From Tabrizicola soli (GTDB lineage Bacteria; Pseudomonadota; Alphaproteobacteria; Rhodobacterales; Rhodobacteraceae), in NCBI RefSeq assembly GCF_015999335.1, contig NZ_JAEACP010000009.1, forward strand, positions 1 to 64,000: a DNA stretch of 64,000 nucleotides. The letters run 5' to 3'. The notes beneath the pieces were generated by a model. The model saw nothing but the letters and a program-made list of their open reading frames with translations, was not told the origin of the DNA and did not search any database. Both the position numbers and the translations under genes were made by a program. Position 1 is the first letter of the stretch. Each line of letters begins with the position of its first letter. Shown piece by piece: positions 32,437-49,390 of the stretch.

Positions 32437-32478
32437 TTGACTTGGCCGGATTTCGCAATATCATTCGTATACAAATGA
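32437..32478 (+). promoter_or_regulatory. Promoter with MarR-type operator 1 (hydroxylase/reductase operon)
   Basis: TTGACT (32437-32442) and TATCAT (32459-32464) with 16 bp between form the promoter. The operator TCATTCGTATACAAATGA (32461-32478) overlaps the -10 and start point, a repressor position. It is the most symmetric of five copies in the window. Confidence 0.72.
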
Positions 32479-32501
32479 CAAGCGCCGCATGGGAGGGGCT
32501 C

Positions 32502-33356
32502 TTGGCGTATCTCGTTCCCGACTCGCTTCCGGAGGCCCTGACCCTGCTGCGCGACCGGCGGCCCGAGGTCGTGGCTGGCTGCACCGATGTGCTTCCCGCG
32601 CGGCGGCAGGGCCAGCGCAGCGGCGACATCCTCGACGTGACCCGCCTGCCCGCCCTGCGCGGGATCGCGCGCGAGCCGCGGGGCTGGCGCATCGGGGCCG
32701 CGACCACCTGGGCCGAGATCGCTGCGGCCCCCCTGCCCCCGGCCTTCGCCGCGCTGCAAGAGGCGGCGGTCGAGGTCGGCGCGGTCCAGATCCAGAACGC
32801 GGGCACCGTCGCCGGCAATATCTGCAACGCCTCGCCCGCCGCCGACGGGGTGCCGCCGCTCCTGGCTCTGCGGGCCGAGGTCGAGCTCGCCTCGCACGCC
32901 GGGACCCGGCGCCTCCCGCTGGAAGAGTTCATCACCGGCGTCCGCCGCACCGCCCGCGCCGCGGACGAGCTGGTCACCGCCCTGCACCTGCCCCACCCGG
33001 CCCCGGGCGAAGGCGGGGCCTTCGTCAAACTGGGCACGCGCTCATCGCTGGTGATCTCGATTGCCATGGTCGCGGCGGTGGTTCACATCGACCAAGACCG
33101 CATCGCCGAGGCGCGCGTGGCCGTCGGGGCCTGTTCGCCGGTGGCACGGCGCCTGCCCGCGTGGGAATCCGCGCTTCAGGGCCGCAGGCTGGACGAACTG
33201 GCCGGGCTGAAACCCGACCCCTTCCATCTGTCGGTGCTCTCGCCGATCGACGACATTCGCGCGACGGCGGCCTACCGGATCGAGGCGGTGCGCGAACTCT
33301 GCCAGCGCGCACTGGTGCGGGCGGCAAATGCAGCAGGAGGCGCGGATGGACGGTGA
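32502..33356 (+). CDS. Molybdenum hydroxylase FAD-binding subunit (nicotinate dehydrogenase-like)
   Basis: About 284 residues, CoxM/XdhB-type FAD domain. GCTDVLPARRQG is the first FAD loop and QIQNAGTVAGNICNASPAADGVPPLLAL the second; the C-terminal CO-dehydrogenase flavoprotein domain follows. A TTG start at 32502 with GGGAGG six bases ahead gives MAYLVPDSLPEAL, the usual N-terminus. The in-frame ATG at 32475 lies inside the operator and lacks a ribosome site. It carries electrons from the Mo/[2Fe-2S] subunit, whose gene overlaps it by 11 bp. Confidence 0.84.
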   Translation: MAYLVPDSLPEALTLLRDRRPEVVAGCTDVLPARRQGQRSGDILDVTRLPALRGIAREPRGWRIGAATTWAEIAAAPLPPAFAALQEAAVEVGAVQIQNAGTVAGNICNASPAADGVPPLLALRAEVELASHAGTRRLPLEEFITGVRRTARAADELVTALHLPHPAPGEGGAFVKLGTRSSLVISIAMVAAVVHIDQDRIAEARVAVGACSPVARRLPAWESALQGRRLDELAGLKPDPFHLSVLSPIDDIRATAAYRIEAVRELCQRALVRAANAAGGADGR

Positions 33357-36087
33357 GCATGGCCTGGGGGCGACCCGGTTCATCCTGAACGGCGCGGCGG
33401 TCGCGGTCAGCGCCCCCGCCGGCGAGCGCCTGTCGGACACGCTGCGCGAGCGGCTGGGGGCGCGCGACGTCAAGATCGGCTGCAACGCGGGCGATTGCGG
33501 GGCCTGCTCGGTCCTGATCGACGGGCAGGTGGTCTGCTCCTGCCTGACGCCCACGCACAAGGCCGAAGGCCGCCGGATCGAGACGGTCGGCGGGCTGGTG
33601 GCCTCTGACCCGGTGGCGCAGGCGCTGGCCGGGCGCTTCCAGGACCACGGCGCGGCGCAATGCGGCTTCTGCACGCCGGGCATGGTCACCGCCTCGGTCG
33701 CGCTGTTGCGCGAGGAGCCGCAGCCGGACGAGGCGGCGATCACCCGCGCGCTCGGCGGCGTCCTCTGCCGTTGCACCGGCTATCGCAAGATCATCGACGC
33801 GGTGGCCTCGGTTCCCGCCGCGCTGGCCGAAGCGGATGCGCCGGGCCATGCGGGCGCGGCGATCCGGCGGCTGGACGGGGCGCAGAAACTGGCCGGGACC
33901 GAGGCCTTCGGCGACGACGTGGCCCCGCCCGGCACGCTGGAGATCCTGGTCATCCGCTCGCCCTTCCCGCGCGCGGCCTTCGCCTTCGGCGACCTCGAGG
34001 CCTGGCGCGCCGGGCAGGACGGCATCGCGGCGGTGCTGACGGCCGCCGATGTGCCGGGACGCAACGTCTTCGGCGTGATCCCGGCCTTTGCCGACCAGCC
34101 CGCCTTTGCCGAGGGCACCGCCCGCTTCCGCGGCGAGGCGGTGGCGGCCGTCGTCGGCACCCAGGCCACGATCCGCGCCTTCGATCCGGCCGGCTTCCCG
34201 GTCACCTGGACAGAACTGCCCGCGGTCGAGGTCCCCGCAACAGCCGAGGCACCGGGCGCCCCCCTCCTGCACGAGGGCCGAGCAGGCAACCTGATGTGCA
34301 AGGGCTTCGTCGCCTGCGGCGATGCCGGGGCGGCGCTGGCAGCGGCCGATGTGACGGTCGAGGGACGCTTCGCCAGCGGTTTCGTCGAGCACGCCTATAT
34401 CGAGCCCGAGGCAGGCTTCGCCCAGGTCGTCGACGGCAGGGTGGAAATCCACGCCTGCACCCAGGCCCCGGTCATGGACCTCGAGTCGATGGAGATCCTC
34501 CTCGGCATGGACCGCTCGCGCATCCGCATCGTCCCGACGGCGGTGGGCGGCGGGTTCGGCTCCAAGCTCGACATCTCGCTCCAGCCCTATCTGGCGCTCG
34601 GGGCGCTCAAGACCGGGCGGCCGGTGCGGATGGCCTACAGCCGCACGGAATCGATGCAGTCGACGACCAAGCGCCACCCCTCCGACATCCGGCTGCGGCT
34701 GGGGGCGACGCGGGACGGCATCCTCAAAGGCTGCGACTTCCGGGGCACCTTCAACACCGGCGCCTATGCCTCATGGGGCCCGACGGTGGCGAACCGGGTG
34801 CCGGTCCATGCCTCCGGCCCCTACCGGATCGCCGATTACCGGGCCGAGGCGCGGGCGATCCACACCAACTGCCCGCCCTCCGGGGCCTTTCGCGGCTTCG
34901 GCGTGCCGCAGGCCGCCATCGCGCTGGAGTCGCTGCTGGACGAACTGGCCGCGAAACTGGGGATCGACCCGTTGGAGCTGCGGCTGAAGAACGCGCTGAC
35001 GAACGGCGCGCCCACCGTCTGCGGCCAGGTCTTCCCGCAGGGCGTCGGCATCCGCGCCTGCCTGGAGGCGCTGCGCCCGGCCTGGGAAACCGAACGCGCG
35101 GCGGCGGCGGCGTTCAACCGCGACACGGACGGGCCCCTGCGCCGGGGCGTCGGCCTCGCCTCGGGCTGGTATGGCTGCGGCAATACCTCGCTGCCGAACC
35201 CCTCGACGATCAAGGCCGGGATCCGGGCCGACGGGACCATCGTCCTGCATCAGGGCGCGATGGACATCGGCCAGGGCGCGAATACGGTGATCACCCAGCT
35301 TTTCGCCACGGCGCTGGGGGTTCCGGTCGCCTCCGTCACGCTGATCGGCCCCGATACCGACCTGACGCCCGATGCCGGCAAGACCTCCGCCTCGCGCCAG
35401 ACCTTCGTCTCGGGCAATGCCGCCCGGCTTTGCGGCGAGGCGCTCCGGGCCGAAGTACTGCGCGCGGCCAACGTCTCCGGGGCGGCGGCGCTGTCGGTCA
35501 CGGCGGGCGCGATCACCGTGGACGACGGCGCCAGCCGCCACCGCCTCGCGCTGGACCAGCTTGCCGCCGATGGCGACGGCTTCGTCCTTGCCGCCAGCGG
35601 CCATTACGACCCGCCGACCAAACCGCTCGACGCCAATGGCCAGGGCGAACCCTATGCCCAGTTCGGCTATGCCGCGCAGCTGGTGGTGGCCGAGGTGGAC
35701 ACCTCCCTCGGCACCGTCTGCCTCAAGCGCATCGTCGCCGCGCATGACGTCGGCCTCGCGGTCAACCCGATGCTGGTCGAGGGCCAGATCCAGGGCGGCG
35801 TCGCCCAGGGCATCGGCATGGCCCTGATGGAGGAATACATCCCCGGCCGCACCGAGAACCTGCACGACTACCTGATCCCGACCATCGGGGACGTTCCGCC
35901 CATCGAACCGATCATCATCGAGGAAGCCGACGCCCACGGCCCCTTCGGCGCCAAGGGGCTGGGCGAGCACGTCCTGATCCCGACCGCGCCCGCGATCCTG
36001 AACGCCATCTCCCACGCTGCCGGGGTGCGCATGACCAGCGTTCCGGTGACCCCCGCGAAACTCGCCGCCGCATTGGCAGGAGACTGA
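33346..36087 (+). CDS. Molybdenum hydroxylase, fused [2Fe-2S] and molybdopterin subunit (nicotinate dehydrogenase-like)
   Basis: A 913-residue fusion. The N-terminal plant-type cluster uses C46, C51, C54 and C66, and the second cluster CGFCTPG and CRCTGY (about 105-145). The Mo-binding part (about 170-913) has VGGGFGSK, the GAFRGFGVPQ loop, and the C-terminal GAKGLGEH with the likely catalytic glutamate. This family adds water-derived oxygen to N-heterocycles such as nicotinate, xanthine or isoquinoline. The operon context (6-hydroxynicotinate reductase and enamidase homologues under one regulator) favours a pyridine carboxylate. ATG 33346 has GGAGGCGCGG. Confidence 0.85.
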   Translation: MDGEHGLGATRFILNGAAVAVSAPAGERLSDTLRERLGARDVKIGCNAGDCGACSVLIDGQVVCSCLTPTHKAEGRRIETVGGLVASDPVAQALAGRFQDHGAAQCGFCTPGMVTASVALLREEPQPDEAAITRALGGVLCRCTGYRKIIDAVASVPAALAEADAPGHAGAAIRRLDGAQKLAGTEAFGDDVAPPGTLEILVIRSPFPRAAFAFGDLEAWRAGQDGIAAVLTAADVPGRNVFGVIPAFADQPAFAEGTARFRGEAVAAVVGTQATIRAFDPAGFPVTWTELPAVEVPATAEAPGAPLLHEGRAGNLMCKGFVACGDAGAALAAADVTVEGRFASGFVEHAYIEPEAGFAQVVDGRVEIHACTQAPVMDLESMEILLGMDRSRIRIVPTAVGGGFGSKLDISLQPYLALGALKTGRPVRMAYSRTESMQSTTKRHPSDIRLRLGATRDGILKGCDFRGTFNTGAYASWGPTVANRVPVHASGPYRIADYRAEARAIHTNCPPSGAFRGFGVPQAAIALESLLDELAAKLGIDPLELRLKNALTNGAPTVCGQVFPQGVGIRACLEALRPAWETERAAAAAFNRDTDGPLRRGVGLASGWYGCGNTSLPNPSTIKAGIRADGTIVLHQGAMDIGQGANTVITQLFATALGVPVASVTLIGPDTDLTPDAGKTSASRQTFVSGNAARLCGEALRAEVLRAANVSGAAALSVTAGAITVDDGASRHRLALDQLAADGDGFVLAASGHYDPPTKPLDANGQGEPYAQFGYAAQLVVAEVDTSLGTVCLKRIVAAHDVGLAVNPMLVEGQIQGGVAQGIGMALMEEYIPGRTENLHDYLIPTIGDVPPIEPIIIEEADAHGPFGAKGLGEHVLIPTAPAILNAISHAAGVRMTSVPVTPAKLAAALAGD

Positions 36088-36088
36088 C

Positions 36089-37597
36089 ATGACCGACAAA
36101 GCCGACCGCCCCGCCGACCGGACAGCCGACAAGATCCGCTGCGACGCCTGCCCGGTGCTGTGCTACATCGCCGAGGGCCGGGCCGGGGCCTGCGACCGCT
36201 ACGCCAACCACGGCGGCACGCTGGTCCGGCTGGATCCGCTGACCATCATCGAAAGCGCCGCCAGCCACGGCGTGAAGGCGGTGCCCTTCCTCAAGGGCAG
36301 CCAGGGCACCGACTGGGACGGCGATCTGGTGCAGGGCGGACGGCCCTTCATCACCGCGGTCGGCGCGGGCACCACCTATCCCGACTACAAGCCCGCCCCC
36401 TTCATCGTCAGCCAGAATGTCGAGGGCGTGGACATGGTCACCGTGGTGACCGAAGGCATCTTCAGCTACTGCGGCGTCAAGGTGAAGATCGACACCGACC
36501 GTTTCATCGGCCACGAGCGCGCCGTGGTTCGGGTCGATGGCGAACCCATCGGCCATGTGATGACCTCGGAATACGGCTCGAAGATGCTGTCGCTGGGCGG
36601 GGTCGAGCATCTGACCGGCGGCGGCAAGAAGGAAGGCCGCGTCACCTGCGACGCGCTGCTGCGGCTGTGCAACCGCGAAGCCGTCGAGATGACGGTGGAC
36701 GAGGGCGCCACCGTCATCGTGCAGGCCGGCCGGGCGCCGGTGATCAACGGCGCCGAGGAAAAGCTGATGCGGGTCGGCTGCGGCTCGGCCACCATCGGCA
36801 TGTTCGCCAAGCAATGGGCGCAGCATGTCGACGAGGTGGTGGTGGTGGACGACCACATCACCGGCGTCCTGTCCGAACACCAGGCCGGCAAGCTTCTGAA
36901 CGTGCCGCCCAGCGGCATCCGCGTGAAGGGCCGCCGCTCGACGCCGGGGCGCTATTTCCAGGTCGCCGAACCCGGCACCGGCTGGGGCGGCACCGATATC
37001 GAGGACCCGCTCACCATCCTGAAGGAGCCCGACCCCGAGACCGCCTGGGAGGGCCTGCGCCTTCTCATGGTCTCGACCACCGGCGAACAATCCGCCTATT
37101 ACGAGCTGGACGCCGCGCTGAACCCGGTCCCGAAGCCTCTCCCGCCCGACCTGCGCAGCTCGGTCGACCTGATCGCCGAGAATTGCGAGCCTTCGCTCTG
37201 CTCGGTGCTGTTCATGGCCGGCGCGGGCGGCTCGCTACGCGCGGGCGTGACGCAGAACCCGGTGCGGCTGACGCGCTCGGTCAAGGATTCGCTCACCTAT
37301 GTCTCCTGCGGCGGGGCCGGGGCCTATGTCTGGCCCGGCGGCGGGATCACGGTGATGGTGGACGTGACCGAAATGCCCAGCAATTCCTTCGGCTATGTCC
37401 CCACCCCCGCGCTGGTGGCGCCGATCGAATTCACCATGCGCCTTTCGGATTACATCGCGCTTGGCGGCCATGCCGATCAGGTGCGCCCCATCGAAGGCGT
37501 CGTCAGCGACAAGGTGCGCCGGGTCGGGCCGGGCGGGGCGCAGGACGATCCGATGGCGCGGCACCACTTCCGCTGGCCGGCGGACAGCCAGGCATGA
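36089..37597 (+). CDS. 6-hydroxynicotinate reductase homologue (Fe-S flavoprotein)
   Basis: A 502-residue protein recognisable as the Hnr family, which reduces 6-hydroxynicotinate to 1,4,5,6-tetrahydro-6-oxonicotinate with ferredoxin. Cysteines C18, C21, C25 and C35 at the N-terminus (CDACPVLC) suggest an iron-sulfur cluster, and several more follow (C128, C187, C194, C231, and ENCEPSLC and SCGGAG near the C-terminus). The characterised Eubacterium barkeri enzyme has a covalent flavin and several Fe-S clusters. GCGSATIG at 230-237, with T235, resembles an ApbE flavinylation site, and the next gene is ApbE-like. AGGAG precedes the ATG. I rate family membership high and exact substrate moderate. 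Confidence 0.8.
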   Translation: MTDKADRPADRTADKIRCDACPVLCYIAEGRAGACDRYANHGGTLVRLDPLTIIESAASHGVKAVPFLKGSQGTDWDGDLVQGGRPFITAVGAGTTYPDYKPAPFIVSQNVEGVDMVTVVTEGIFSYCGVKVKIDTDRFIGHERAVVRVDGEPIGHVMTSEYGSKMLSLGGVEHLTGGGKKEGRVTCDALLRLCNREAVEMTVDEGATVIVQAGRAPVINGAEEKLMRVGCGSATIGMFAKQWAQHVDEVVVVDDHITGVLSEHQAGKLLNVPPSGIRVKGRRSTPGRYFQVAEPGTGWGGTDIEDPLTILKEPDPETAWEGLRLLMVSTTGEQSAYYELDAALNPVPKPLPPDLRSSVDLIAENCEPSLCSVLFMAGAGGSLRAGVTQNPVRLTRSVKDSLTYVSCGGAGAYVWPGGGITVMVDVTEMPSNSFGYVPTPALVAPIEFTMRLSDYIALGGHADQVRPIEGVVSDKVRRVGPGGAQDDPMARHHFRWPADSQA

Positions 37598-38490
37598 CGG
37601 GGCCGGCGGCCGCGCTGCTTCCGGGCGACCGGCTGCACCTGCAGCACGGGCCCATCGACCTGATCATCGGGGCCGATGGCCTGGCGCGGGCGCAGGCCTT
37701 CGCCGCCGCCGCCGCCCGCTTCGACGGGCTGCTTCAGGAACTGGTGGCCGAACTGCCGCTCCTGCGCGCCGGGGTGACCGCCGGCCTGCCCGCCCCGCAA
37801 GGCCCGGTCGCGCGCCGGATGCATCGCGCCGTGCGCCCCCATGCCGATGTCTTCATCACCTGCATGGCCGCCGTGGCCGGCGCCGTCGCCGACGAGATCC
37901 TGTCCGCGATGACCGCTGCCGCGCCGCTTTCCCGCGCCTATGTGAACAACGGCGGCGACATCGCCCTCCACCTTGCCGCAGGGAGCAGCTTCACCAGCGC
38001 GATGGCCGGGTTGGACGGGCGCGACCTCGGCCGCATCCTGGTTTCCGCCGGGGCCGGGATCGGCGGCATCGCCACCAGCGGCGCGGGTGGGCGCAGCTTC
38101 TCGCTGGGCATCGCCGACAGCGTCACCGTCCTCGCGCGCTCGGCGGCCGAGGCCGACGCGGCGGCGACGATGATCGCCAATGCCGTCGACCTGCCCCGCC
38201 ATCCCGGCATCCGCCGCACCCGCGCCTGCGACCTGCAGCCCGACAGCGACCTCGGCACGCGCCCGGTGGTGACCGGGGTGCCGCCGCTTTCGCCCGATGA
38301 CGTCGCACGGGCGCTGGACGCGGGGGCGGCCCGCGCGCAAGACTTGCTGACACGGGGCCTGATCGCGGGGGTGGCGCTGTTCCTGCAGGGCCAGACCCGG
38401 CTGGCCGGGACGGGTTTCACGGGATTGATCCAGAAGGACGAGGTGGCACATGCCCAAGGTCGAGGTGCGCAAGCGGCTGCTTGTGCTTGA
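37594..38490 (+). CDS. UPF0280 family protein (ApbE-related)
   Basis: About 298 residues. YVNNGGDIALHL and GIGGIATSGAGGRSFSLGIADSVTVLA match the FAD/metal-binding pattern of ApbE-type flavin transferases, to which UPF0280 is related. The start overlaps the reductase stop as ATGA, so the two are translationally coupled. The most economical reading is a maturation factor that attaches flavin to the reductase; this is inference. The 3' end overlaps the next gene by 41 bp. Confidence 0.75.
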   Translation: MTGPAAALLPGDRLHLQHGPIDLIIGADGLARAQAFAAAAARFDGLLQELVAELPLLRAGVTAGLPAPQGPVARRMHRAVRPHADVFITCMAAVAGAVADEILSAMTAAAPLSRAYVNNGGDIALHLAAGSSFTSAMAGLDGRDLGRILVSAGAGIGGIATSGAGGRSFSLGIADSVTVLARSAAEADAAATMIANAVDLPRHPGIRRTRACDLQPDSDLGTRPVVTGVPPLSPDDVARALDAGAARAQDLLTRGLIAGVALFLQGQTRLAGTGFTGLIQKDEVAHAQGRGAQAAACA

Positions 38491-39031
38491 GGAAATCTTT
38501 CACGAGGGCGGCCCGCCCCGCAGCGATCCGCACCGGCGCGGCGCCGTGCTCGCCGTGATCCGCAACCCCTTCGCCGGGCGCTACGAGCCCGAGATCCAGG
38601 GCTTCATGGACGACCTCCGCCCCCTCGGGCTGGAGATGGCGCAGCAGCTTGCGGCGGCGCTCGGCGGCGCGGACAGGATCGAGGGCTACGGCAAGGCCTC
38701 GCTCGTCGGCGCGGCGGGAGAGCTGGAACACGGCGCGCTCTGGCATGCCCCCGGCGGCTATGCCATGCGCGAGGTGCTGAACGGGGCCAAGGCCATCGTG
38801 CCCTCGGCCAAGAAGGTCGGCGGCGCGGGCGCGCGGATCGACGTGCCGATCACCCATGTCAACGCCTCCTACGTCCGCAGCCATTTCGATTCGATCGAGG
38901 TCGGCCTGAACGACGCCCCGCGCGCCGACGAGATGGTGGTGATCCTGGCGATGACCACCGGCCCCCGCGTCCATTCCCGCTCCGGCGGGCTGGAGGCCTC
39001 GCAGATCAAGGGAGAGGACGGTCTGAGATGA
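38450..39031 (+). CDS. DUF1185 (amino acid synthesis family, PF06684) protein, copy 1
   Basis: A 193-residue protein of the AA_synth family: NPFAGRYEPEIQGFMDDLRPLG, EGYGKASLVGAAGELEHGALWH, VPSAKKVGGAGARIDVPITH and a C-terminal AMTTGPRVHSR. Reported structures of the family show a chorismate-mutase-like fold, but no reaction is settled. It is followed by a paralogue with an ATGA overlap. The 41-bp overlap with UPF0280 makes a slightly later start possible. Confidence 0.78.
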   Translation: MPKVEVRKRLLVLEEIFHEGGPPRSDPHRRGAVLAVIRNPFAGRYEPEIQGFMDDLRPLGLEMAQQLAAALGGADRIEGYGKASLVGAAGELEHGALWHAPGGYAMREVLNGAKAIVPSAKKVGGAGARIDVPITHVNASYVRSHFDSIEVGLNDAPRADEMVVILAMTTGPRVHSRSGGLEASQIKGEDGLR

Positions 39032-39612
39032 AGGCAAGGATTCGCAAGCTGGGCGTCTGGGTCGAGGAAACGCATGAGGAAGCCGGACGCGCCATTGATC
39101 CCCCCACCCGCAAGGCCGTCGCGGCGGCGGTGATCGAGAACCCCTTCGCCGGGCGCTATGTCGAGGATCTGACCGACCTGATGGATATCGGCGAGGAGCT
39201 GGGCGCGCTTCTGGGCGAGAAATGCGTGGCGGCGCTGGGGATCCGGCCCGATCGGGCGGAAAGCTACGGCAAGGCGGCGCTGGTCGGCGAAAACGGCGAG
39301 CTGGAACATGCCGCCGCCCTCCTGCACCCGAAACTGGGCGCCCCCCTGCGCAAGGCGGTGGAGAAGGGCGCGGCCCTGGTCCCCTCGTCGAAAAAGCGCG
39401 GCGGCATGGGACAGGACCTGGGCATTCCGCTGGGCCACAAGGACGCGGCCTTCGTGCGCTCGCATTTCGACGGCGTCGAGATCCGCTTCAACGACGCCCC
39501 CCGCGCCAACGAGATCGTCGTCGCCGTCGCCGTGACCGACAGCGGCCGCCCGTTGCCGAGGGTGGGCGGGCTGAAGGTCGGGGAAATCACCGGCAAGGAC
39601 GGATTGCGCTAG
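39028..39612 (+). CDS. DUF1185 (amino acid synthesis family, PF06684) protein, copy 2
   Basis: A 194-residue paralogue of the preceding gene, with the same landmarks: NPFAGRYVEDLTDLMDIG, ESYGKAALVGENGELEHAAALLHP, VPSSKKRGGMGQDLGIPLGH and VTDSGRPLPRVGGL. The two copies differ at many positions, so a heteromeric enzyme or two linked steps are both possible. Last gene of the operon starting at 32502; a hairpin terminator follows at 39632. Confidence 0.78.
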   Translation: MKARIRKLGVWVEETHEEAGRAIDPPTRKAVAAAVIENPFAGRYVEDLTDLMDIGEELGALLGEKCVAALGIRPDRAESYGKAALVGENGELEHAAALLHPKLGAPLRKAVEKGAALVPSSKKRGGMGQDLGIPLGHKDAAFVRSHFDGVEIRFNDAPRANEIVVAVAVTDSGRPLPRVGGLKVGEITGKDGLR

Positions 39613-39717: not shown

Positions 39718-39761
39718 TTGACAAGGCCCGCCGCACCCTATTATCGTTCGTATACAAATGA
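39718..39761 (+). promoter_or_regulatory. Promoter with MarR-type operator 2 (ferredoxin operon)
   Basis: A perfect TTGACA (39718-39723) is followed after 15-17 bp by TATTAT or TTATCG. The operator TCGTTCGTATACAAATGA (39744-39761) covers the -10/+1 region and ends 11 bp before the ferredoxin start. Confidence 0.72.
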
Positions 39762-39772: not shown

Positions 39773-40108
39773 ATGACCTATGTCGTCACCGAAGGCTGCA
39801 TCGCCTGCAAATACACCGATTGCGTCGAGGTCTGTCCGGTGGATTGCTTCTACGCGGGCGAGAACATGCTGGTGATCCACCCCGACGAATGTATCGACTG
39901 CGGCGTGTGCGAGCCGGAATGTCCGGTGGACGCCATCCTTCCCGACACGGCGCCCGGGGTCGCGCCCTGGCTCACGCTCAACGCCGAGCTGGCGGAGGTC
40001 TGGCCCAACATCCGCGAAAGGATCGCGCCGCTGCCGGACCACGAAGCCTGGGCCGGGCAGCAGGGCAAGCTCGCTTCCCTGTCGCGCAACCCCGCCGCCC
40101 CGCAATGA
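39773..40108 (+). CDS. 7Fe ferredoxin (FdxA-type)
   Basis: A 111-residue ferredoxin with [17 protein letters not shown] (residues 9-25) and [15 protein letters not shown] motifs, the arrangement of [3Fe-4S][4Fe-4S] ferredoxins of about 110 residues. ATG at 39773 is used rather than 39758, which lies in the operator end. It is under the same operator type as the reductase gene and lies 11 bp before a ferredoxin-NADP reductase, so it is the likely electron donor to the 6-hydroxynicotinate-reductase homologue. Confidence 0.9.
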
Positions 40109-40119
40109 GACCGGAGACC

Positions 40120-40950: not shown

Positions 40951-41973
40951 ATGGCCCCCTTTGACCAGCCGGACCGCAGGGACCATGCCGCCGCCGGGAA
41001 GCGGCCGGCCTCCCCGCGCGCCAGCCACCGCACGGCCGAGATCGTCTTCCTCCTGGTCGACAACTTCTCGCATCTGGCCTTTTCCTGCGCCATCGAACCC
41101 CTGCGGATCGCCAACCGGGTCTCGGGGCAGACGCTGTTCCGCTGGTCGCTGGCCAGCGCCGACGGGGTTTCGGCGGTCTGCTCCAACCGTTCGGTCACGC
41201 TGGTCGACCGGGGGCTGGAGCCCCTGCGCCATGTCGACCGCCTGCTGGTCATCTCGGGCGACGAGGTGCAGGACCGCGCCACGCCCGAAATCCTGGCCTA
41301 TCTCCGCCGGGAACGGGCTGCCGGCACGCCGATCGGGGCGATCTGCTCCGGGGCCTATCTCCTGGCCAGCGCCGGCTTCCTGAAGGATCAGGCGGCGGCG
41401 ATCCACTGGGAATACCACGATGTCGTCGCCGAGCTCTTTCCCGACGTCCGGCTGGTGCGCGGGGTCTTCGTGGCCGACCAGAAGTTCATCACCGCCGCAG
41501 GAGGGACGGCGGCGGCGGATCTGATGCTGCACCTGATCGCCGCCGAGCACGGCCCCGCGCTTGCCACCGCCGTCGCCGACCGGATGGTCTACAACGCCGT
41601 CCGCGAAGCCACGGCCGAGCAGCGGGTTTCCCTGCAGGCGCGCCACGGGATGCGCAACGAATCCCTGATGCGCGCGGTGGAACTGGCGCAGGAAAACCTC
41701 GAGGATCCGGTCTCCCCGCGCGAGATCGCGCGGGCCCTCGGCCTCTCGACCCGCCAGATCGAGCGGCTGTTCCAGCGCCATCTCGGAACCTCGCCGAAAC
41801 GCTTCATCATGCAGACGCGGCTGACCCGGGCCAGGAACCTCCTGGTGCAGACCGACCTGTCGATAACCGAGGTCGCGGTCGCCTGCGGTTTCAAGACCCC
41901 CTCGACCTTCTCCAAGGTCTACCGCGCGCATTTCCAGGTCTCGCCCGGCGCGCAGCGCACGACGCTGCGCTAG
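40951..41973 (+). CDS. GlxA-family AraC-type transcriptional regulator (GbdR-like)
   Basis: A 340-residue regulator: an N-terminal DJ-1/PfpI-like domain (AEIVFLLVDNFSHLAFSCAIEPLRIANR, GAICSGAYLLASAG) and a C-terminal AraC DNA-binding domain (SPREIARALGLSTRQIERLFQRHLG, ITEVAVACGFKTPSTFSKVYRAHF). Relatives control carnitine, dimethylglycine and arginine use. It starts 12 bp after the reductase gene, so it is probably part of the ferredoxin operon, and is convergent with the ABC transporter operon. Confidence 0.86.
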   Translation: MAPFDQPDRRDHAAAGKRPASPRASHRTAEIVFLLVDNFSHLAFSCAIEPLRIANRVSGQTLFRWSLASADGVSAVCSNRSVTLVDRGLEPLRHVDRLLVISGDEVQDRATPEILAYLRRERAAGTPIGAICSGAYLLASAGFLKDQAAAIHWEYHDVVAELFPDVRLVRGVFVADQKFITAAGGTAAADLMLHLIAAEHGPALATAVADRMVYNAVREATAEQRVSLQARHGMRNESLMRAVELAQENLEDPVSPREIARALGLSTRQIERLFQRHLGTSPKRFIMQTRLTRARNLLVQTDLSITEVAVACGFKTPSTFSKVYRAHFQVSPGAQRTTLR

Positions 41974-41977: not shown

Positions 41978-43042
41978 TCACAGGAACAGGTGGCTTTCGC
42001 CCGGCGCCCAGCCCAGCTGCGCGCTCGCACCGGGGGAAAGCCCGGCGATCTCCTCGGCCCCGGCCCGCATCCAGATCTCCTGCCCCCAATCGGTGCGGAA
42101 CTGCACCGTTGAGGTATCGCCCAGGAAGGTCACGTCCAGCACCCGCACCGGAAGCCCCGTCGCCGCCAGCCGCAGCGACTGCGGGCGAACCATGACCTGC
42201 GCCGCCGTGGCCCCGCCGCCGGGGGCCGAGCGGTGCACCGGCAGGTCGGCCATCGCCGTGCCATCGGGAAACACGACCCGGCCGCGATCGCCGGAAACCG
42301 CCACTTCGGCGGTGTCGAGGAAATTGGAATCGCCGATGAACCCGGCGACGAAGCGGGTGGCCGGATTGTGATACAGGTCGCGCCCGCTGCCGACCTGCTC
42401 GATCCTTCCCCGGTTGAACACCGCGATGCGGTCCGACAGGCGCAGCGCCTCCTCCTGGTCATGGGTCACATAGAGGATCGTCACCCCGGTCTCGCGGTGG
42501 ATGCGGCGGATCTCGATCTGGATCTCCTCGCGCAGCTTCTTGTCCAGCGCGGACAAGGGCTCGTCCATCAGCAGCACCGGCGGATCATAGGCCAGGGCGC
42601 GCGCCAGCGCGACGCGCTGTTGCTGGCCGCCGGACAGGTTGCCCGGCATCCGGTCGGCGAAGGCCTCCAGCTGCACCAGCGCCAGCATCTGGCTCACCCG
42701 CGCCGCGATCTCCGGCTCGGCCTGCCCGCGCACCCGCAGCGGGAAGGCGACGTTCTCGCGCACGTTCAGATGCGGGAACAGCGTATACCTCTGGAACACC
42801 ATCCCGATATTGCGCCTGTGCGAGGGCGTCGCCAGGATCGAGGCACCCTTCAGCAGGATATCGCCCGAGGTCGGCTCGTTGAACCCCGCCAAGGCGTAAA
42901 GCGTGGTCGACTTGCCCGATCCCGACGGGCCGAGGAAGGTCAGGAACTCCCCCTCGGGGATCTCCAGCGAGACATCGTCGACCGCGACGAAGCTGCCATA
43001 GGTCTGCCGCAGGCCGCGGATGGAAAGGAAGGCCGGGGTCAT
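41978..43042 (-). CDS. Spermidine/putrescine-type ABC ATP-binding protein (PotA-like)
   Basis: About 354 residues: Walker A GPSGSGKST, signature LSGGQQQRV, Walker B VLLMDEPLSALD, then a C-terminal TOBE/regulatory domain. ATG at 43042 overlaps the permease stop by 4 bp; the open frame upstream is permease sequence in another frame. Last gene of a four-gene transporter operon under MarR operator 3. The imported substrate is probably the compound degraded by this cluster. Confidence 0.9.
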   Translation of the reverse strand: MTPAFLSIRGLRQTYGSFVAVDDVSLEIPEGEFLTFLGPSGSGKSTTLYALAGFNEPTSGDILLKGASILATPSHRRNIGMVFQRYTLFPHLNVRENVAFPLRVRGQAEPEIAARVSQMLALVQLEAFADRMPGNLSGGQQQRVALARALAYDPPVLLMDEPLSALDKKLREEIQIEIRRIHRETGVTILYVTHDQEEALRLSDRIAVFNRGRIEQVGSGRDLYHNPATRFVAGFIGDSNFLDTAEVAVSGDRGRVVFPDGTAMADLPVHRSAPGGGATAAQVMVRPQSLRLAATGLPVRVLDVTFLGDTSTVQFRTDWGQEIWMRAGAEEIAGLSPGASAQLGWAPGESHLFL

Positions 43043-43839
43043 CTGGAAATCCGTCTCCTCAGAAGGGCTGCCGCGGCCATCACCAGCAGGGTGAAGGCGA
43101 CAAGGATGGTGGAGGCCGCCGCGATCACCGGCGACAGGTCCTGCCGCAGCGCACCCCAGATGCGCACCGGCAGGGTCTGCAGGTCGGGGCTGGCCATGAA
43201 GATCGCCACCACCACCTCGTCCCAGGAAATCAGGAAGGCGAAGACGGCGGCCGAGAACAGGCCGATCCGGATCGCCGGAAGCGTGATCTTCAGCTTGGCC
43301 TGCAGGGGCGAGGCCCCGCACAGGACCGCCGCATCCTCGATCGACTTGTCGAACCCCTCCAGCGAGTTGACGATCGGGATCACCGCGAAGGGAAAGGCCA
43401 GCACCGTATGCGCCAGCACGAAGCCGACAAGGGTGCCGTTCAGGCCCACGCGCAGGAACAGCGCATAGATCGCCACCGCGAAGACGATCACCGGCAGGAC
43501 CATCGGCGTCAGGAACAGCGCCTTCAGCAGACCCCGCCCCCGGAACCGGCCGCGCACCAGCGCGAAACTCGCCATCAGCCCCAGAAGCACCGCCAGCGCC
43601 GCCGACAGGAGGCCCACCTTGGCACTGGTCAGCGCCGCCTCTAGCCAGCGCGGATCGGCCGCCAGTTCGCGGTACCAGCGCAGCGTCCAGGAGGGCGGCG
43701 GGAACACCAGCCATTGCGACGACCCGAAGGACAGCGCCGCGATGAAGACGATGGGCACCAGGAGGAACAGGCAGACCAGGATCGTGACCGCCCAGAGCGC
43801 CACGCCAAGCCCGCCCAGATGACGGTAGGTCAGCAGCAT
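43039..43839 (-). CDS. ABC transporter permease, PotC-type
   Basis: About 266 residues with about six membrane spans and the coupling loop DAAVLCGASPLQAKLKITLPAIRIGL. ATG at 43839 (MLLTYRHLGGLG) is 2 bp past the PotB stop; the open frame further up is in the preceding gene. Confidence 0.9.
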   Translation of the reverse strand: MLLTYRHLGGLGVALWAVTILVCLFLLVPIVFIAALSFGSSQWLVFPPPSWTLRWYRELAADPRWLEAALTSAKVGLLSAALAVLLGLMASFALVRGRFRGRGLLKALFLTPMVLPVIVFAVAIYALFLRVGLNGTLVGFVLAHTVLAFPFAVIPIVNSLEGFDKSIEDAAVLCGASPLQAKLKITLPAIRIGLFSAAVFAFLISWDEVVVAIFMASPDLQTLPVRIWGALRQDLSPVIAAASTILVAFTLLVMAAAALLRRRISR

Positions 43840-43840
43840 C

Positions 43841-44677
43841 TCAGCGCATCCCCCCGAAAAAGCGGATCTGCACCGCATACAGCGCCAGCGTCACCGTCAG
43901 CAGGATGAAGGCCGCCGCCGATCCCAGCCCCCAGTTCAACAGCGACTGCACCAGCTGCGCGATCATCTCGGCCAGCATCATCTGCGAGGCGCTGCCCAGA
44001 AGGGCGGGCGTGACGAAATAGCCCAGCGACATGACAAAGACCATCAATCCCCCCGCCGCCGCCCCCGGCGCCGACAGCGGCAGAAGCACCCGCCGGAACG
44101 CCTGCCAGCGCCCCGCGCCGCACAGCGCCGCCGCCTGCAAGGTGGTCGGGTCGATGGCGCGGATGCTGGCGTAGAGCGGCAGGATGATGAAGGGCAGCAT
44201 GATATAGGTCATCCCGATGGTGACCCCGGTCAGGTTCTTGACCAGCGCCAGCGGCTCGGAGATCAGGCCAAGCTTCATCAGCGTGGTGTTGATCACCCCC
44301 GTCCGCTGCAACAGCACCATCCAGGCATAGGTGCGCGCCAGCAGGTTGGTCCACATCGACACCAGGATGATGGCCAGCACCAGGTTCGCATACCGCTGCG
44401 GCATGATCGCCAGCAGCCAGGCCACCGGATAGCCCAGCAGCAGCGAGACCGCCGTGACCACGAAGGCCACCAGGAACGTGTTGTACAGCACCCGCGCATA
44501 GGTCGAGGTCGCGAACAGCTCGGCATAGTTCTGCAGCCCCGGCTCCGGCTCCAGGATCGAGCGCAGCAGCAGGCTGACCACCGGGATCACGAAGAACAGC
44601 GCCAGAAGCACGAGGGCAGGGACAGCCGGGCCGAAGCCCCGCCACTGCCGCCTTGGAACAGATGCGTTTGCGGCCAT
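43841..44677 (-). CDS. ABC transporter permease, PotB-type
   Basis: About 278 residues, about six membrane segments, with the coupling loop LQAAALCGAGRWQAFRRVLLPLSAPG and the PotB-like LARTYAWMVLLQRTGVIN. ATG at 44677 is favoured over GTG at 44686 because GGTGAG lies at ribosome-site distance. Confidence 0.9.
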   Translation of the reverse strand: MAANASVPRRQWRGFGPAVPALVLLALFFVIPVVSLLLRSILEPEPGLQNYAELFATSTYARVLYNTFLVAFVVTAVSLLLGYPVAWLLAIMPQRYANLVLAIILVSMWTNLLARTYAWMVLLQRTGVINTTLMKLGLISEPLALVKNLTGVTIGMTYIMLPFIILPLYASIRAIDPTTLQAAALCGAGRWQAFRRVLLPLSAPGAAAGGLMVFVMSLGYFVTPALLGSASQMMLAEMIAQLVQSLLNWGLGSAAAFILLTVTLALYAVQIRFFGGMR

Positions 44678-44702
44678 GCGACTCACCGTAAGGGGGTGAA
44701 GG

Positions 44703-44740: not shown

Positions 44741-45748
44741 TTACTGGGCCTGCCAGTCGTACCAGCGTTTCGCGATCTCGTCGCGGTGCTCGGCCCAATA
44801 GGCCATGTCCAGGTCGATCTGGCTGTCGACATGGGCGTCCGGCAGCTCGGCCACCACGGCCGGGTCCATCTCGGCCTTCGAATTCACGTTGATCGGCGCA
44901 TAGCCGGTGGCCGTGGCCAGGCTGGCCTGCCCCGAGGCAGAGGTCGCCTCGGCCAGGAACTTCATCGCCGCTTCCTTGTTCTTCGCGCCCTTCGGCACCA
45001 CGAGGACATCGGCGGCGGTCAGGTTCTGCGCCCAGGACACGCCGACATTGCCGCCTTCCTGCTGGATGGCAAAGACGCGGCCATTCCAGAAACTGCCGAT
45101 CGGCGCCTCGCCCGAGGCGAGCAGCTGCTGCGATTCCGCGCCGCCGCCCCACCAGATGATCTCGGACTTGATCGTGTCCAGCTTGGCGAAGGCCCGGTCG
45201 AGGTCCAGCGGATACAGCGCATCCGCCGCCACGCCATCGGCCAGAAGCGCTGCCTCCAGCACGCCGGGCGCGGACCACTTGTAGAAGCTGCGCTTGCCCG
45301 GAAACTTCGCGGTATCGAACACGTCGGCCCAGCTTGCCGGCTCGCCCGAAAGCGCGTCCTTGTTGTAGCCGATCACGAAGGAATAATAGAAGCTGCCCAC
45401 CGCGTGGTCGGTGACGAAACGCGGGTCGATCGCGGCGCGGTCCACCACGCCGAAGTCGATCGGCTCCAGCAGGCCCATCTGCGCGGCGGCGATGGCGAAG
45501 TCGTATTCGACATCCACCACGTCCCAGTCGACATTGCCGCTGTCGACCATCGCCTTCAGCTTGCCATAGTCGGTCGGCCCGTCCTGCCGCACGTTGATGC
45601 CGGTCTTCTCGGTGAAGGGCGCCGCCCAGGACGCGGCCTGCGCGTCCTGCGTGGTGCCGCCCCAGCTGGTGAACACCATGTCCTGCGCCGAGGCCGTCAG
45701 GGCCATGCCGCCGACAAGGGCCGTTGCTGTCGCAAGTGTCTTGAACAT
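44741..45748 (-). CDS. Extracellular substrate-binding protein, PotD/PotF-type
   Basis: A 335-residue periplasmic protein with a Sec signal (MFKTLATATALVGGMALTASA, cleavage near SAQD). MVFTSWGGTTQDAQAASWAAPFTEKTGINV and WDVVDVEYDFAIAAAQMGLLEPIDF mark it as SBP family 1. Relatives bind polyamines, but members of this branch also take up betaines and organic acids. Gene context suggests a pyridine carboxylate or its N-methyl form. First gene of the transporter operon. Confidence 0.88.
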   Translation of the reverse strand: MFKTLATATALVGGMALTASAQDMVFTSWGGTTQDAQAASWAAPFTEKTGINVRQDGPTDYGKLKAMVDSGNVDWDVVDVEYDFAIAAAQMGLLEPIDFGVVDRAAIDPRFVTDHAVGSFYYSFVIGYNKDALSGEPASWADVFDTAKFPGKRSFYKWSAPGVLEAALLADGVAADALYPLDLDRAFAKLDTIKSEIIWWGGGAESQQLLASGEAPIGSFWNGRVFAIQQEGGNVGVSWAQNLTAADVLVVPKGAKNKEAAMKFLAEATSASGQASLATATGYAPINVNSKAEMDPAVVAELPDAHVDSQIDLDMAYWAEHRDEIAKRWYDWQAQ

Positions 45749-45844: not shown

Positions 45845-45887
45845 TCGTTTGCTTACGAATGATTATTCATTTCCGCCCGCCTGTCAA
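45845..45887 (-). promoter_or_regulatory. Promoter with MarR-type operator 3 (transporter operon)
   Basis: On the minus strand TTGACA (45887-45882) is followed by an AT-rich -10 (ATAATC or TAATCA). The operator TCATTCGTAAGCAAACGA (45862-45845) overlaps it. The start codon of the binding protein is 97 bp downstream. Confidence 0.68.
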
Positions 45888-45899: not shown

Positions 45900-47093
45900 T
45901 CAGCGCCGCGCGACAAGCTCGGGCAGGCGCATCGCGGGCGGGGTGTTGCGGCTGCGCTCGCTGCGCACCACCCCGTCGATGATCGTCATGCCCACACCCG
46001 GCAGGTTGCCCAGCTGCACGGATTCAAGGATGTTCCGGCCCGGCGCGTGCTGGGCCTGGTCCATCAGCACGAAATCGGCGGCGAAGCCGGGCTCCAGCAG
46101 GCCCGCGTCCAGTTCGCGCTGCCGCGCCGTGTTGCCGGTGGCAAAGCAGAAGGCCACCTCGGCCGGCACGTTGCCCAGGCTGGACAGCATCGCCACCATG
46201 CGCAGGATGCCCAGGGGCTGCACGCCGGATCCCGCCGGCCCGTCGGTCCCCAGGATCACCTGGTCCAGCTTGCCCAGCTCGCGCGCGGTGTTGATCGTCA
46301 ACAGCGCCGCGCGTTCGTTGCCGTTGTGGACGATCTCCAGCCCCTTGGTGCAGTTCTCGCACAGGCAGACGATCTGGTCGTCCGGCAGCGCCGAATGGCC
46401 GCCGTTGATATGGCCCACCACATCCGCCCCGGTCTCCAGCACCATGTCGGCGTCGATCAGGCCCGAGCCGGGGATCGACGGCCCGCCGGTGTGGATCGTG
46501 CTCTGGATGCCGTATTTGCGCGCCCAGTCCACCATCTGCCGCGCGGTCTTGCCATCCTTGACCGAACCAAGGCCCACCTCGCCCAGAAGCCGCACCCCCG
46601 CCGCGGCAAGCTCGCGGAAGTCGTCCTCGACCATGCCATGCTCGATCACCGGCGCGCCGCCATGGACCTTGACTCCCGAGGGGCGGAAATTCTCGTACCA
46701 GCGCTGCGCCGCGATCGCCATCGCCTTCAGCCCGACGATGTCCTTCGGCCGCCCCGGCATATGCACCTCGCCGGCCGAGATCATCGTGGTGACGCCGCCG
46801 TGCAGCGAGCTGTCGATCCAGTTCAGCTGCTGCTGGCGCGGCGTGTAGTCGCCGACGACCGGGTGGACATGGCTGTCGATCAGGCCGGGAACCAGCGTCG
46901 CCCCCTTCGCATCGACCACCGTGGTCGCGCCCTCGGTGTCCAGGTCCTTTTCGCGGCCCCAGGCGGCAATCTTGCCGCCGACGGCCACCACGCAATCGCC
47001 CTCGGCAATCGGCGATTCGATCTTGCCCGTCAGCAAAAGACCGATATTCCGGATGACGAGCTTGTCGGGCATGGGAGATACAGACATCTGCAT
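45900..47093 (-). CDS. Enamidase-like amidohydrolase
   Basis: A 397-residue metal-dependent amidohydrolase very like the enamidase of anaerobic nicotinate fermentation. Shared features I recognise: NIG at the N-terminus, DSHVHP (H75, H77 metal ligands), GDYTPRQ, SLHGGVTTMISAGEVHMPGRPKDIVGLKA, RPSGVKVHGGAPV, TGGPSIPGSG, GTDGPAGSGVQPLGILR and SRNTPPA near the end. Enamidase opens 1,4,5,6-tetrahydro-6-oxonicotinate to ammonia and 2-formylglutarate using Fe and Zn. ATG 47093 follows AAAGG; 47087 is also possible. Divergent from the MarR gene, with operator 4 between. Confidence 0.85.
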   Translation of the reverse strand: MQMSVSPMPDKLVIRNIGLLLTGKIESPIAEGDCVVAVGGKIAAWGREKDLDTEGATTVVDAKGATLVPGLIDSHVHPVVGDYTPRQQQLNWIDSSLHGGVTTMISAGEVHMPGRPKDIVGLKAMAIAAQRWYENFRPSGVKVHGGAPVIEHGMVEDDFRELAAAGVRLLGEVGLGSVKDGKTARQMVDWARKYGIQSTIHTGGPSIPGSGLIDADMVLETGADVVGHINGGHSALPDDQIVCLCENCTKGLEIVHNGNERAALLTINTARELGKLDQVILGTDGPAGSGVQPLGILRMVAMLSSLGNVPAEVAFCFATGNTARQRELDAGLLEPGFAADFVLMDQAQHAPGRNILESVQLGNLPGVGMTIIDGVVRSERSRNTPPAMRLPELVARR

Positions 47094-47115
47094 GGTACCT
47101 TTCTTGCGGCTCTTT

Positions 47116-47151
47116 TCATTTGTATGCTAATGGAAGTTCCTGCAAAAGCAA
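47116..47151 (-). promoter_or_regulatory. Promoter with MarR-type operator 4 (enamidase/MarR divergent region)
   Basis: Minus-strand TTGCTT (47151-47146) and TAGCAT (47129-47124) with 16 bp between. The operator TCATTTGTATGCTAATGG (47116-47133) covers the -10. As it also lies upstream of the MarR gene, it can serve for autoregulation. Confidence 0.66.
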
Positions 47152-47239: not shown

Positions 47240-47698
47240 ATGACGAAAGCCGATGATCAGGTTGCGGCCGTGGATGACGCGCCCGCGGATCCCTATGTCC
47301 TCGATGCGCAGATCGGTTACCTCCTGCGCCTTGCCAACCAGCGCCATGCGCTGATCTTCCAGGAACATGCCATCCTTGACCTGACGCCCACGCAGTTCTC
47401 GGCGATGGTCCGGCTTCTGGACGAAGGCGAATGTTCGCAGAACGAGCTGGGGCGGCGGACGGCGATGGACGTGGCCACGATCAAGGGCGTCGTGGACCGG
47501 CTGCGCGCCAAGGGGCTGGTCAACCTGAAGCCCGACCCGAAGGACAAGCGCCGGACGACCATCTCGCCGGCCGGACCCGAAGCGGAGCTGCGCGACAGGC
47601 TGCACGGGATGGGCCGCACCATCACCGAACAGACCCTCGCCCCCCTGACCCGGAGCGAGCGCGCGACCCTGCTGCGGCTCCTGTCCCGCCTGACCTGA
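47240..47698 (+). CDS. MarR-family regulator, NicR-like
   Basis: A 152-residue MarR protein. YVLDAQIGYLLRLANQRHALIF, LTPTQFSAMVRLLDEGECSQNELGRRTAMDVATIKGVVDRLRAKGLV and DPKDKRRTTISPAG closely follow the pattern of NicR, the MarR-type repressor of nicotinate genes that responds to 6-hydroxynicotinate. ATG 47240 has AAAGGCCGGATGG upstream; the open frame from 47120 has no homologous content. Probably the repressor that binds the five palindromes. It ends in a bidirectional hairpin. Confidence 0.84.
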   Translation: MTKADDQVAAVDDAPADPYVLDAQIGYLLRLANQRHALIFQEHAILDLTPTQFSAMVRLLDEGECSQNELGRRTAMDVATIKGVVDRLRAKGLVNLKPDPKDKRRTTISPAGPEAELRDRLHGMGRTITEQTLAPLTRSERATLLRLLSRLT

Positions 47699-47714
47699 CC
47701 GGCGCCCGGTCAGG
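47694..47714. terminator. Bidirectional hairpin between MarR and MttB-like genes
   Basis: CCTGACCGG (47694-47702) pairs perfectly with CCGGTCAGG (47706-47714), loop CGC. It overlaps the MarR stop and lies between convergent genes. Confidence 0.7.
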
Positions 47715-47728
47715 CCAGGCACTCGCGG

Positions 47729-49285
47729 TCAGATGACCGAGACGGCCCCGGTATAGGCGGCGACGATATGCTCGTCGGCGCGGGCGGTCAGCGCGGCGAT
47801 CTCGCGCTCCTGCTCCTCGCTCAGAAGCCCCTGCTCCGGCGCCGCGGCGATGGCGGCCAGCGCGGCATCGCGCGCCTCGTCAAAGGCGGTGCGGCGGCCC
47901 GATTTCTCGTAATCGTCGCGGCCCTGGCGGCGGAACACCCTGGGCGCAAGCTGGTCGCGGCAGGTGGCGATGGTATGCGCGCTGTCCAGGAAATGCCCGC
48001 CGGTGCGGATCTGCATCAGCTCGTCCCAGTTCAGCGCCTCCTTGTCCAGGCTCGGCTTGCGGACAAAGCGGCGCATCATCGCGCCCACCTCGTTGTCCAG
48101 CACCGCCTGCACCGGGCTGAAGACGGTGGCGCATTCCAGCTGCCCCACCCCGCCCAGGATATCGGCCCCCGCCAGCGCCACGGTCTGCGTCAGCATCGCG
48201 CGCTCGGCCATCGACTGATGGTCCGCGTCCGGCGTGTCCGAGCCCGAGCCGTAGGTATGCGCAACCTGCCCCCAGCCCCGCTTCATCAGCTGGACCGACA
48301 TGTTGGCCGCCTGCAGCGATTCGACGCAGCTTTGCAGCGCGCTGCCCGTGCGCATGTCCAGCGTGAACATCAGCGGCGTGGCGATGACCGGAATCCCCGG
48401 CGACAGGATATGCGCCATCACCGTCATGCCGACGATCTCGGCCGCCGACATGATCGCCATCGACGGCACCGACAGCGGCGCCGTCCCGCCCGAGGACGGC
48501 AGGCTGCAGGCATGCAGCGGGATGCCGTATTCCCCCGCCTTGATGATCACATGCGTGTCCATGTACTTGAATTCCAGCGGCGTGAACGAGCAGGTGATGC
48601 AGCTGGTGATCGGATTGGCGCGCAACTCCGCCTCGCCCCCGGCCGCGATGGCGGCGATCCGCATCAGGTAATCCACGTTCTCCCACTGGTAGGGCTGCAT
48701 CCAGATATGCTTCGGCGTGCGCCCGATCAGCCGGCCGTAGCTGTGGATGTCCGAGGTCACCTCCGGCACGCCATGCACGAAGGGATGGGCGATGAACCCC
48801 ACCTCGTCCAGCGTGTTGGCGACCGCCGCGATCTCCGAGACCGCCGTCAGGTCCATCTTGCGATAGCTGGCGTCGCGCGGATTGACATAGCCATGCGCGC
48901 CGGTGCCGGTGCGCATGATGAACCCGCCATCGGCGCGCGGCAGGTCCATGTCGAACCGCGCCTCCTTGCCCCCCAGCCGCACCGCCTTGGGCGTGGCGGC
49001 CATCGCCTCGCGGATCAGCTCGCGCGGCATCCGGATGCGGTTCGCGTCGCTGCCGGGCTTCGCGCCCGCCGCAAGGAAGCGCTTGTAGGCCTCGGGGTGC
49101 AGGATCGCCACGCCGTAATCGGCCAGCACATCCTCGACCCGCTCCCTCATCCAGGCCACCTCGTCGTCCGAGAGAAAACCGAAGGTCGCGCGCTGGAAGC
49201 CCGGGGGTTCCTGCCGGAAGGCGTTCGCCGGATGGCTGACCCGGACCGTCCGGGCGCGTTTGGGGGTGTTCCTGCTGGCTTCCAT
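47729..49285 (-). CDS. MttB superfamily methyltransferase without pyrrolysine
   Basis: About 518 residues of the trimethylamine methyltransferase superfamily (FGFLSDDEVAWMRERVEDVLADYGVAILHPEAY at the start, GGVGQLECATVFSPVQAVLDNEV near residue 400). No in-frame amber codon interrupts it, so it belongs to the non-pyrrolysine branch. Known members of that branch demethylate glycine betaine, proline betaine or carnitine with a corrinoid protein. No corrinoid protein gene lies in the window. ATG 49285 has a perfect GGGAGG site. It shares the MarR operator with the pyridine-type genes, so an N-methylpyridinium such as trigonelline is a candidate substrate. Confidence 0.84.
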   Translation of the reverse strand: MEASRNTPKRARTVRVSHPANAFRQEPPGFQRATFGFLSDDEVAWMRERVEDVLADYGVAILHPEAYKRFLAAGAKPGSDANRIRMPRELIREAMAATPKAVRLGGKEARFDMDLPRADGGFIMRTGTGAHGYVNPRDASYRKMDLTAVSEIAAVANTLDEVGFIAHPFVHGVPEVTSDIHSYGRLIGRTPKHIWMQPYQWENVDYLMRIAAIAAGGEAELRANPITSCITCSFTPLEFKYMDTHVIIKAGEYGIPLHACSLPSSGGTAPLSVPSMAIMSAAEIVGMTVMAHILSPGIPVIATPLMFTLDMRTGSALQSCVESLQAANMSVQLMKRGWGQVAHTYGSGSDTPDADHQSMAERAMLTQTVALAGADILGGVGQLECATVFSPVQAVLDNEVGAMMRRFVRKPSLDKEALNWDELMQIRTGGHFLDSAHTIATCRDQLAPRVFRRQGRDDYEKSGRRTAFDEARDAALAAIAAAPEQGLLSEEQEREIAALTARADEHIVAAYTGAVSVI

Positions 49286-49362
49286 GACTGCCTCCCTGCA
49301 AAAAGGATTGCCCATGGCACACACCGATTAGGCTGACTGCCTGCCGACTTCAGCTCGCAATA

Positions 49363-49390
49363 ACGCTAGCATACGAATGAGTTTCGTCAA
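49363..49390 (-). promoter_or_regulatory. Promoter with MarR-type operator 5 (MttB-like gene)
   Basis: Minus-strand TTGACG (49390-49385) and TAGCGT (49368-49363) with 16 bp between. The operator TCATTCGTATGCTAGCGT (49380-49363) fills the spacer and -10. The MttB-like start is 78 bp downstream. Confidence 0.66.

Follow-up and report, generated by a model that had tools for sequence, protein, structure and literature searches.

A predicted MarR-controlled, probably reductive nicotinate cluster in Tabrizicola soli pairs a 6-hydroxynicotinate reductase homologue with a UPF0280 protein of predicted ApbE fold

Introduction

The nic pathway of Pseudomonas putida (NicAB, NicR) hydroxylates nicotinate at position 6 and is under MarR-type control; both features have predicted counterparts in the gene cluster reported here, at 32400-49432 of a 64,000-nucleotide stretch of Tabrizicola soli (contig NZ_JAEACP010000009.1, positions 1 to 64,000; the window). 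Among the closest known systems are the nicotinate clusters of Azorhizobium caulinodans ORS571 (AZC_2804-2790) and Bradyrhizobiaceae, described with a 6-hydroxynicotinate reductase (Hnr) and two conserved unknown proteins (PMC3511419). In Pseudomonas, 6-hydroxynicotinate is decarboxylated to 2,5-dihydroxypyridine (PMC3511419), whereas in the window it would be reduced. Nicotinate fermentation by Eubacterium barkeri (Ndh, Hnr, Ena) is matched by a near-full-length enamidase relative and, by source annotation, an Hnr homologue; its Hnr shares 42% identity with that of strain SG-6C (PMC3511419), and its hydroxylase is selenium-containing and split into NdhL and NdhM (PMC5746545), unlike the fused subunit in the window.

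Comparable clusters of A. caulinodans, B. japonicum, R. palustris and strain SG-6C have been published (PMC3511419), and the original prediction for this DNA, made from its letters, overstated the novelty of the cluster; the pathway type is known, and what is special here is an unusual hydroxylase and extra regulon members. Nine fetched loci of Bradyrhizobium, Afipia and Rhodopseudomonas have a NicAB-type hydroxylase, in contrast to the fused, xanthine-dehydrogenase-type enzyme of the window; the window differs from the published clusters also in its linked ferredoxin, its ABC transporter and its MttB gene.

Results

The locus as a whole is probably best explained as an aerobic reductive nicotinate route with a UPF0280 protein as maturation factor of Hnr. 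We hold with good confidence that it encodes a reductive pyridine-carboxylate route and, a step less firmly, that nicotinate is the ring substrate. Nicotinate, or a compound feeding into it, would enter aerobically and under MarR control; the molybdenum hydroxylase would add the 6-hydroxy group, Hnr would convert 6-hydroxynicotinate to 1,4,5,6-tetrahydro-6-oxonicotinate with electrons passed from NADPH through ferredoxin reductase and ferredoxin, and the enamidase would open the ring to give 2-formylglutarate and ammonia. UPF0280 would stand outside the pathway as a dedicated cytoplasmic ApbE-fold factor that most likely attaches a covalent flavin to Hnr. What the analysis itself shows is gene content, homology, co-occurrence, a predicted fold and a common operator, while the substrate, the reactions, the path of the electrons and the part played in flavin transfer are inferred. 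The corresponding genes are as follows.

32502..33356, + strand: FAD subunit of molybdenum hydroxylase (MoFAD); PF00941 4e-41, PF03450 2e-13 (open reading frame from 32475)
33328..36087, + strand: fused [2Fe-2S]/molybdopterin subunit of xanthine-dehydrogenase-type hydroxylase (MoLS); PF02738, PF20256, PF01799
36089..37597, + strand: 6-hydroxynicotinate reductase homologue (Hnr, P0001); homologues so named in databases
37594..38490, + strand: UPF0280 protein with ApbE-like predicted fold, proposed Hnr maturation factor/flavin transferase
39773..40108, + strand: ferredoxin (Fer4 + DUF3470); family search from 39758, start from gene call
40105..40938, + strand: ferredoxin-NADP reductase-like protein; PF00970, PF00175; NF008178 126 bits, under its cut-off of 390
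45900..47093, - strand: enamidase-like amidohydrolase (Ena); 2VUN 1.1e-108, residues 11-392

Gene calling and sequence comparison with Pfam, NCBIfam and PDB recovered every gene that had been predicted, at about the expected positions, and family and structure matches confirmed the list of hydroxylase, Hnr, ferredoxin, ferredoxin-NADP reductase, Ena, ABC transporter and MarR regulator. Ena is indeed an enamidase relative: residues 11-392 of 397 match the E. barkeri enamidase (2VUN, E=1.1e-108), with the HxH, IHTGG, GHING and GTDGP stretches in place. In the reaction as described, tetrahydro-6-oxonicotinate is opened to 2-formylglutarate and deaminated at the same time (PMC9304392). Hnr has thousands of database relatives (all 7999 scored candidates passed) and owes its name to the source annotation of homologues as 6-hydroxynicotinate reductase among the best 120 of 7999. 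It has no relative by sequence in PDB, and eight cysteines are invariant across 53 aligned sequences.

For comparison, 85 related loci (1.65 Mb) were surveyed, namely the best 80 of 587 relatives in named genomes, a set skewed to Rhodobacterales, and 5 annotated plasmid regions from 26 plasmid records; 61 of them, in which Hnr is flanked on both sides by 9 kb or more, form the long-flank subset. A fused-type hydroxylase is present in 62 loci and a NicAB-type one in 18, and 5 have neither (2/61 with long flanks). Long-flank fused-type loci (n=43) carry Ena in 37 cases, HyuAB in 1 and neither in 5, and long-flank NicAB-type loci (n=16) carry HyuAB in 8, Ena in 5 and neither in 3, HyuAB being scored at 60% identity to two reference pairs only and perhaps undercounted. 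A tree of 74 Hnr sequences implies a minimum of 4 changes for the NicAB label and of 6 for the fused label (L115 sits on a long branch and its placement is unsure); the hydroxylase and the ring-opening enzyme are therefore exchangeable around a constant Hnr. This exchange favours a single ring substrate, with NicAB pointing to nicotinate, and the several independent origins that bacterial nicotinate hydroxylases seem to have (PMC5746545) fit it. In Rhizobiaceae, in Nitrobacteraceae (Bradyrhizobium, Afipia, Rhodopseudomonas) and on a Comamonadaceae plasmid, the Hnr/UPF0280 module, mostly with MarR, lies beside a NicAB-type nicotinate hydroxylase, which, together with the close kinship to the E. 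barkeri enamidase, supports the proposed order of hydroxylase, Hnr and enamidase.

HyuAB, of the hydantoinase/oxoprolinase family, occurs in L064, L069, L070, L077, L079, L081, L082, L113 and L114, where no enamidase was found, and suggests ATP-driven lactam opening as an alternative there. In a Roseovarius FR_34 metagenome-assembled genome (L031, 6415-10002), the molybdenum hydroxylase genes look frame-shifted, which may be an assembly error.

Delivery of electrons to Hnr by ferredoxin and ferredoxin-NADP reductase, as originally predicted, is plausible, but a linked ferredoxin was found in only 6/85 loci (5/61 with long flanks) and a linked reductase in 31/85 (28/61), some loci being short.

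Five operator places were located with the pattern CATTYGTATRCNAATG, one before each transcription unit of the cluster; they and the regulator gene are listed here.

32462..32477: MarR-type operator site 1, upstream of MoFAD
39745..39760: operator site 2, upstream of ferredoxin
45846..45861: operator site 3, upstream of ABC solute-binding protein; 2-3 mismatches
47117..47132: operator site 4, between divergent Ena and MarR
49364..49379: operator site 5, upstream of MttB; 2 mismatches
47240..47698, + strand: MarR-family regulator; PF01047 3.5e-12 (scanned from 47120)

Allowing up to 3 mismatches, the window holds 9 matches at these 5 places against 1.28 expected, and 0/100 shuffles reach 9, a rough guide only, since the pattern was derived from the window's own sites and the count is not independent. 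The related loci supply the independent enrichment that bears out the predicted common operator type. With up to 2 mismatches, 40 of the 85 loci together hold 76 places; 69 of these fall outside the cluster genes but at most 300 bp ahead of one of them, and 3 fall within genes. Shuffling the letters of the pattern 40 times gave on average 3.5 places, 0.2 of them upstream in this sense, with maxima of 16 and 2. With up to 3 mismatches, 146 places (112 upstream, 19 inside genes) compare with 51.7, 5.2 and 21.8 for shuffled patterns. At this level 58/85 loci have a match; in the other 27 the site is absent, diverged or beyond the fetched DNA. A Neorhizobium locus (L113) has five operator places, before nicA, fpr, livK, hnr and hyuA, and five more inside genes. 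No NCBIfam model scored above its cut-off for the window's MarR-family regulator. The cluster is predicted to be MarR-controlled. The TTG start of MoFAD at 32502 is preferred because the ATG at 32475 falls inside operator site 1, and a GGGAGGGG stretch precedes the TTG.

UPF0280 had been proposed to cover a missing catabolic step. This was not borne out: its predicted model has the ApbE structure (T-fold) and, in the loci compared, it strictly co-occurs with Hnr, so that a role in Hnr maturation is indicated instead. The obligate Hnr-UPF0280 pair is the strong new lead of this analysis. A flavin transferase activity would have about an even chance of being right, and conservation of the NNGGDI and AD(x)AAT stretches hints at a retained ability to bind FAD/Mg. 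UPF0280 was rejected as an ApbE proper, since the catalytic histidine is not conserved; it differs from the ApbE/FmnB/Ftp flavin transferases in that the Pfam ApbE model does not pick it up and Hnr holds no known target motif. Our confidence is slightly short of even that this subfamily constitutes a second class of protein flavin transferase, one that is cytoplasmic, has the ApbE fold, is obligatorily paired with Hnr and uses a non-ApbE target site and a different catalytic base.

Discussion

Several observations weigh against the explanation preferred here. The predicted model of Hnr is mediocre (predicted local distance difference test, pLDDT, 70) and matches no solved fold, and its covalent flavin is presumed. 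The molybdenum hydroxylase of the cluster is a candidate nicotinate hydroxylase; MoLS scores better against aldehyde oxidoreductase (1sij, 7e-109) than against the split nicotinate dehydrogenase subunits (3hrd_A, 4e-72). A search with Pfam and NCBIfam, confined to the cluster within this genome, recognised no gene for the reaction that follows 2-formylglutarate. Co-occurrence of Hnr and UPF0280 was examined within Pseudomonadota only. The position aligned with the ApbE catalytic histidine is H in only 9/38 UPF0280 proteins and F, L or Q in the others, that of the window having F opposite His257 of V. cholerae ApbE (profile alignment probability, 80%), and the ApbE target motif D-x-x-[ST]-G-A-[ST], taken from PMC12052999, occurs in 0/53 Hnr sequences.

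The lack of conservation of that histidine and the absence of the target motif from Hnr would also suit a UPF0280 that keeps the ApbE fold as a flavin carrier, FAD hydrolase or chaperone for Hnr and transfers nothing, and a Treponema ApbE relative is titled bifunctional FMN transferase/FAD pyrophosphatase. We consider this the less likely course, as the conserved NNGGDI and AD(x)AAT stretches argue for retained FAD/Mg binding and the covalent flavin that Hnr presumably carries would need explanation. The ring substrate, for its part, might be picolinate or homarine (N-methylpicolinate), with 6-hydroxylation, reduction and enamidase-type opening to 2-oxoadipate and ammonia or methylamine. The fused-hydroxylase cluster type is common in marine Rhodobacterales, and homarine and trigonelline are both reported in the sea, homarine far above trigonelline in marine particles (PMC8269262); a correction, however, states that homarine abundance was overstated, the standard having contained picolinic acid (PMC10134881). 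R. pomeroyi grows more weakly on homarine than on trigonelline (PMC8269262). Loci with the NicAB-type nicotinate hydroxylase contain the same Hnr together with MarR and the operator, which makes picolinate or homarine doubtful as the substrate.

Equally doubtful is a trigonelline-type N-methylated pyridine as outer substrate, from which MttB would pass the methyl group to a shared corrinoid protein before nicotinate enters the route, a Rieske oxygenase demethylating in some relatives. The model is MtgB, which transfers a methyl group of glycine betaine to a corrinoid protein; aerobic marine bacteria, among them marine Rhodobacteraceae, reportedly demethylate glycine betaine in an MtgBCD-dependent manner (PMC12478193). 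An operator precedes MttB in the window and, with 3 mismatches, in Roseovarius FR_34 (L031), where MttB also lies beside MarR. The genome has 8 PF06253 genes and, among three PF02310 matches, one short stand-alone B12-binding protein that resembles MtgC and the trimethylamine corrinoid protein but falls under the MtgC model cut-off; the cluster's own genes include no corrinoid partner. Rieske oxygenase genes occur in 13/43 fused-type and 0/16 NicAB-type long-flank loci. On the other side, MttB was found in just 1/85 sister Hnr loci, and its relatives (E <=1e-100) occur in 9/196 Rhodobacterales genomes, this one included, the other 8 having no Hnr-cluster enzyme gene within ~9 kb of it. The window protein matches MttB (7xcl, E=1e-41) and glycine betaine methyltransferase (9yce, E=8e-26) and shares PF06253 with the cobalamin-dependent MtgB/MttB N-methyltransferases, but is divergent: it scores 149 bits, against 373-800 for the genome's other seven PF06253 proteins, from which its subfamily is distant. 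The Rieske protein finds its best PDB matches in an unnamed Rieske protein and in dicamba O-demethylase, with a far weaker match to the N-demethylase NdmA (1e-16), and the trigonelline route published for bacteria is oxidative (TgnAB; see PMC8269262). A trigonelline demethylase role for MttB is thus possible but weakly supported.

Other features of the locus

MoFAD, MoLS, Hnr, UPF0280 and two DUF1185 genes follow one another on the + strand with overlapping or touching ends, and are followed there by ferredoxin, ferredoxin-NADP reductase and a GlxA/AraC-type regulator (40951-41973) that was missing from the first gene list. The - strand carries a four-gene ABC transporter and Ena; MarR on the + strand and the MttB-superfamily gene on the - strand come next. 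Only 774 of the 17,033 bases in 32400-49432 are non-genic (MoFAD taken from 32475). The remaining genes are listed below; MttB searches were run with 47729-49294 or 47729-49324.

38450..39031, + strand: DUF1185/AA_synth protein a; PF06684 2e-70
39028..39612, + strand: DUF1185/AA_synth protein b; PF06684 2e-73
40951..41973, + strand: GlxA/AraC-family regulator (DJ-1/PfpI + HTH_18); family search
41978..43042, - strand: ABC transporter ATPase (TOBE_2); family search within longer open reading frame
43039..43878, - strand: ABC permease; family search
43841..44686, - strand: ABC permease; family search
44741..45748, - strand: ABC solute-binding protein (SBP_bac_8); family search
47729..49285, - strand: MttB-superfamily protein, divergent subfamily, no in-frame stop; PF06253 1.4e-43; ATG at 49285 probable

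A transporter related to the window ABC system (27-45% identity) lies in the NicAB-type loci L102 and L105 (Bradyrhizobium STM 3809 and STM 3843), and the binding protein of this system in no others of the 85 loci. A 470-490-amino-acid protein with no Pfam match at 1e-5 recurs beside a Liv-type transporter in several clusters (L113, 7737-9200; L112, 9125-10534). Elsewhere in the window are a VanA-type Rieske oxygenase with its reductase (16503-18710) and, adjoining the cluster (24069-31415), a dimethylglycine/sarcosine-dehydrogenase-like protein (DAO + GCV_T) and an OpuA/OpuC-type betaine ABC transporter, with a DeoR regulator at 31534-32334. An Ascidiaceihabitans locus (L074) has a Rieske gene 82% identical to that of the window just upstream of its Hnr cluster.

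Hnr is present in 16/24 other genomes of the genus, at <=68% identity, while that of Roseovarius FR_34, from the survey of named genomes, reaches 88% and one protein cluster among the best 120 of 7999 relatives 97%. Six of the 16 congener loci (L157-L162) all have HyuA and a single DUF1185, and none has Ena, linked ferredoxin, linked ferredoxin-NADP reductase or MttB in ~20 kb. Horizontal transfer has probably brought another version of the cluster into this genome.

Implications

DUF1185 has been tied to amino acids partly through neighbouring branched-chain-type transporters (PMC2954203). In these clusters such transporters probably carry pyridine carboxylates, which may explain the 'amino acid' label. 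A UPF0280 maturation factor, if confirmed, would give a function to a family still hypothetical in NCBIfam (NF003322), account for the attachment of an unusual flavin to 6-hydroxynicotinate reductase and show what must be co-expressed to study Hnr, a reductase without a solved relative by sequence.
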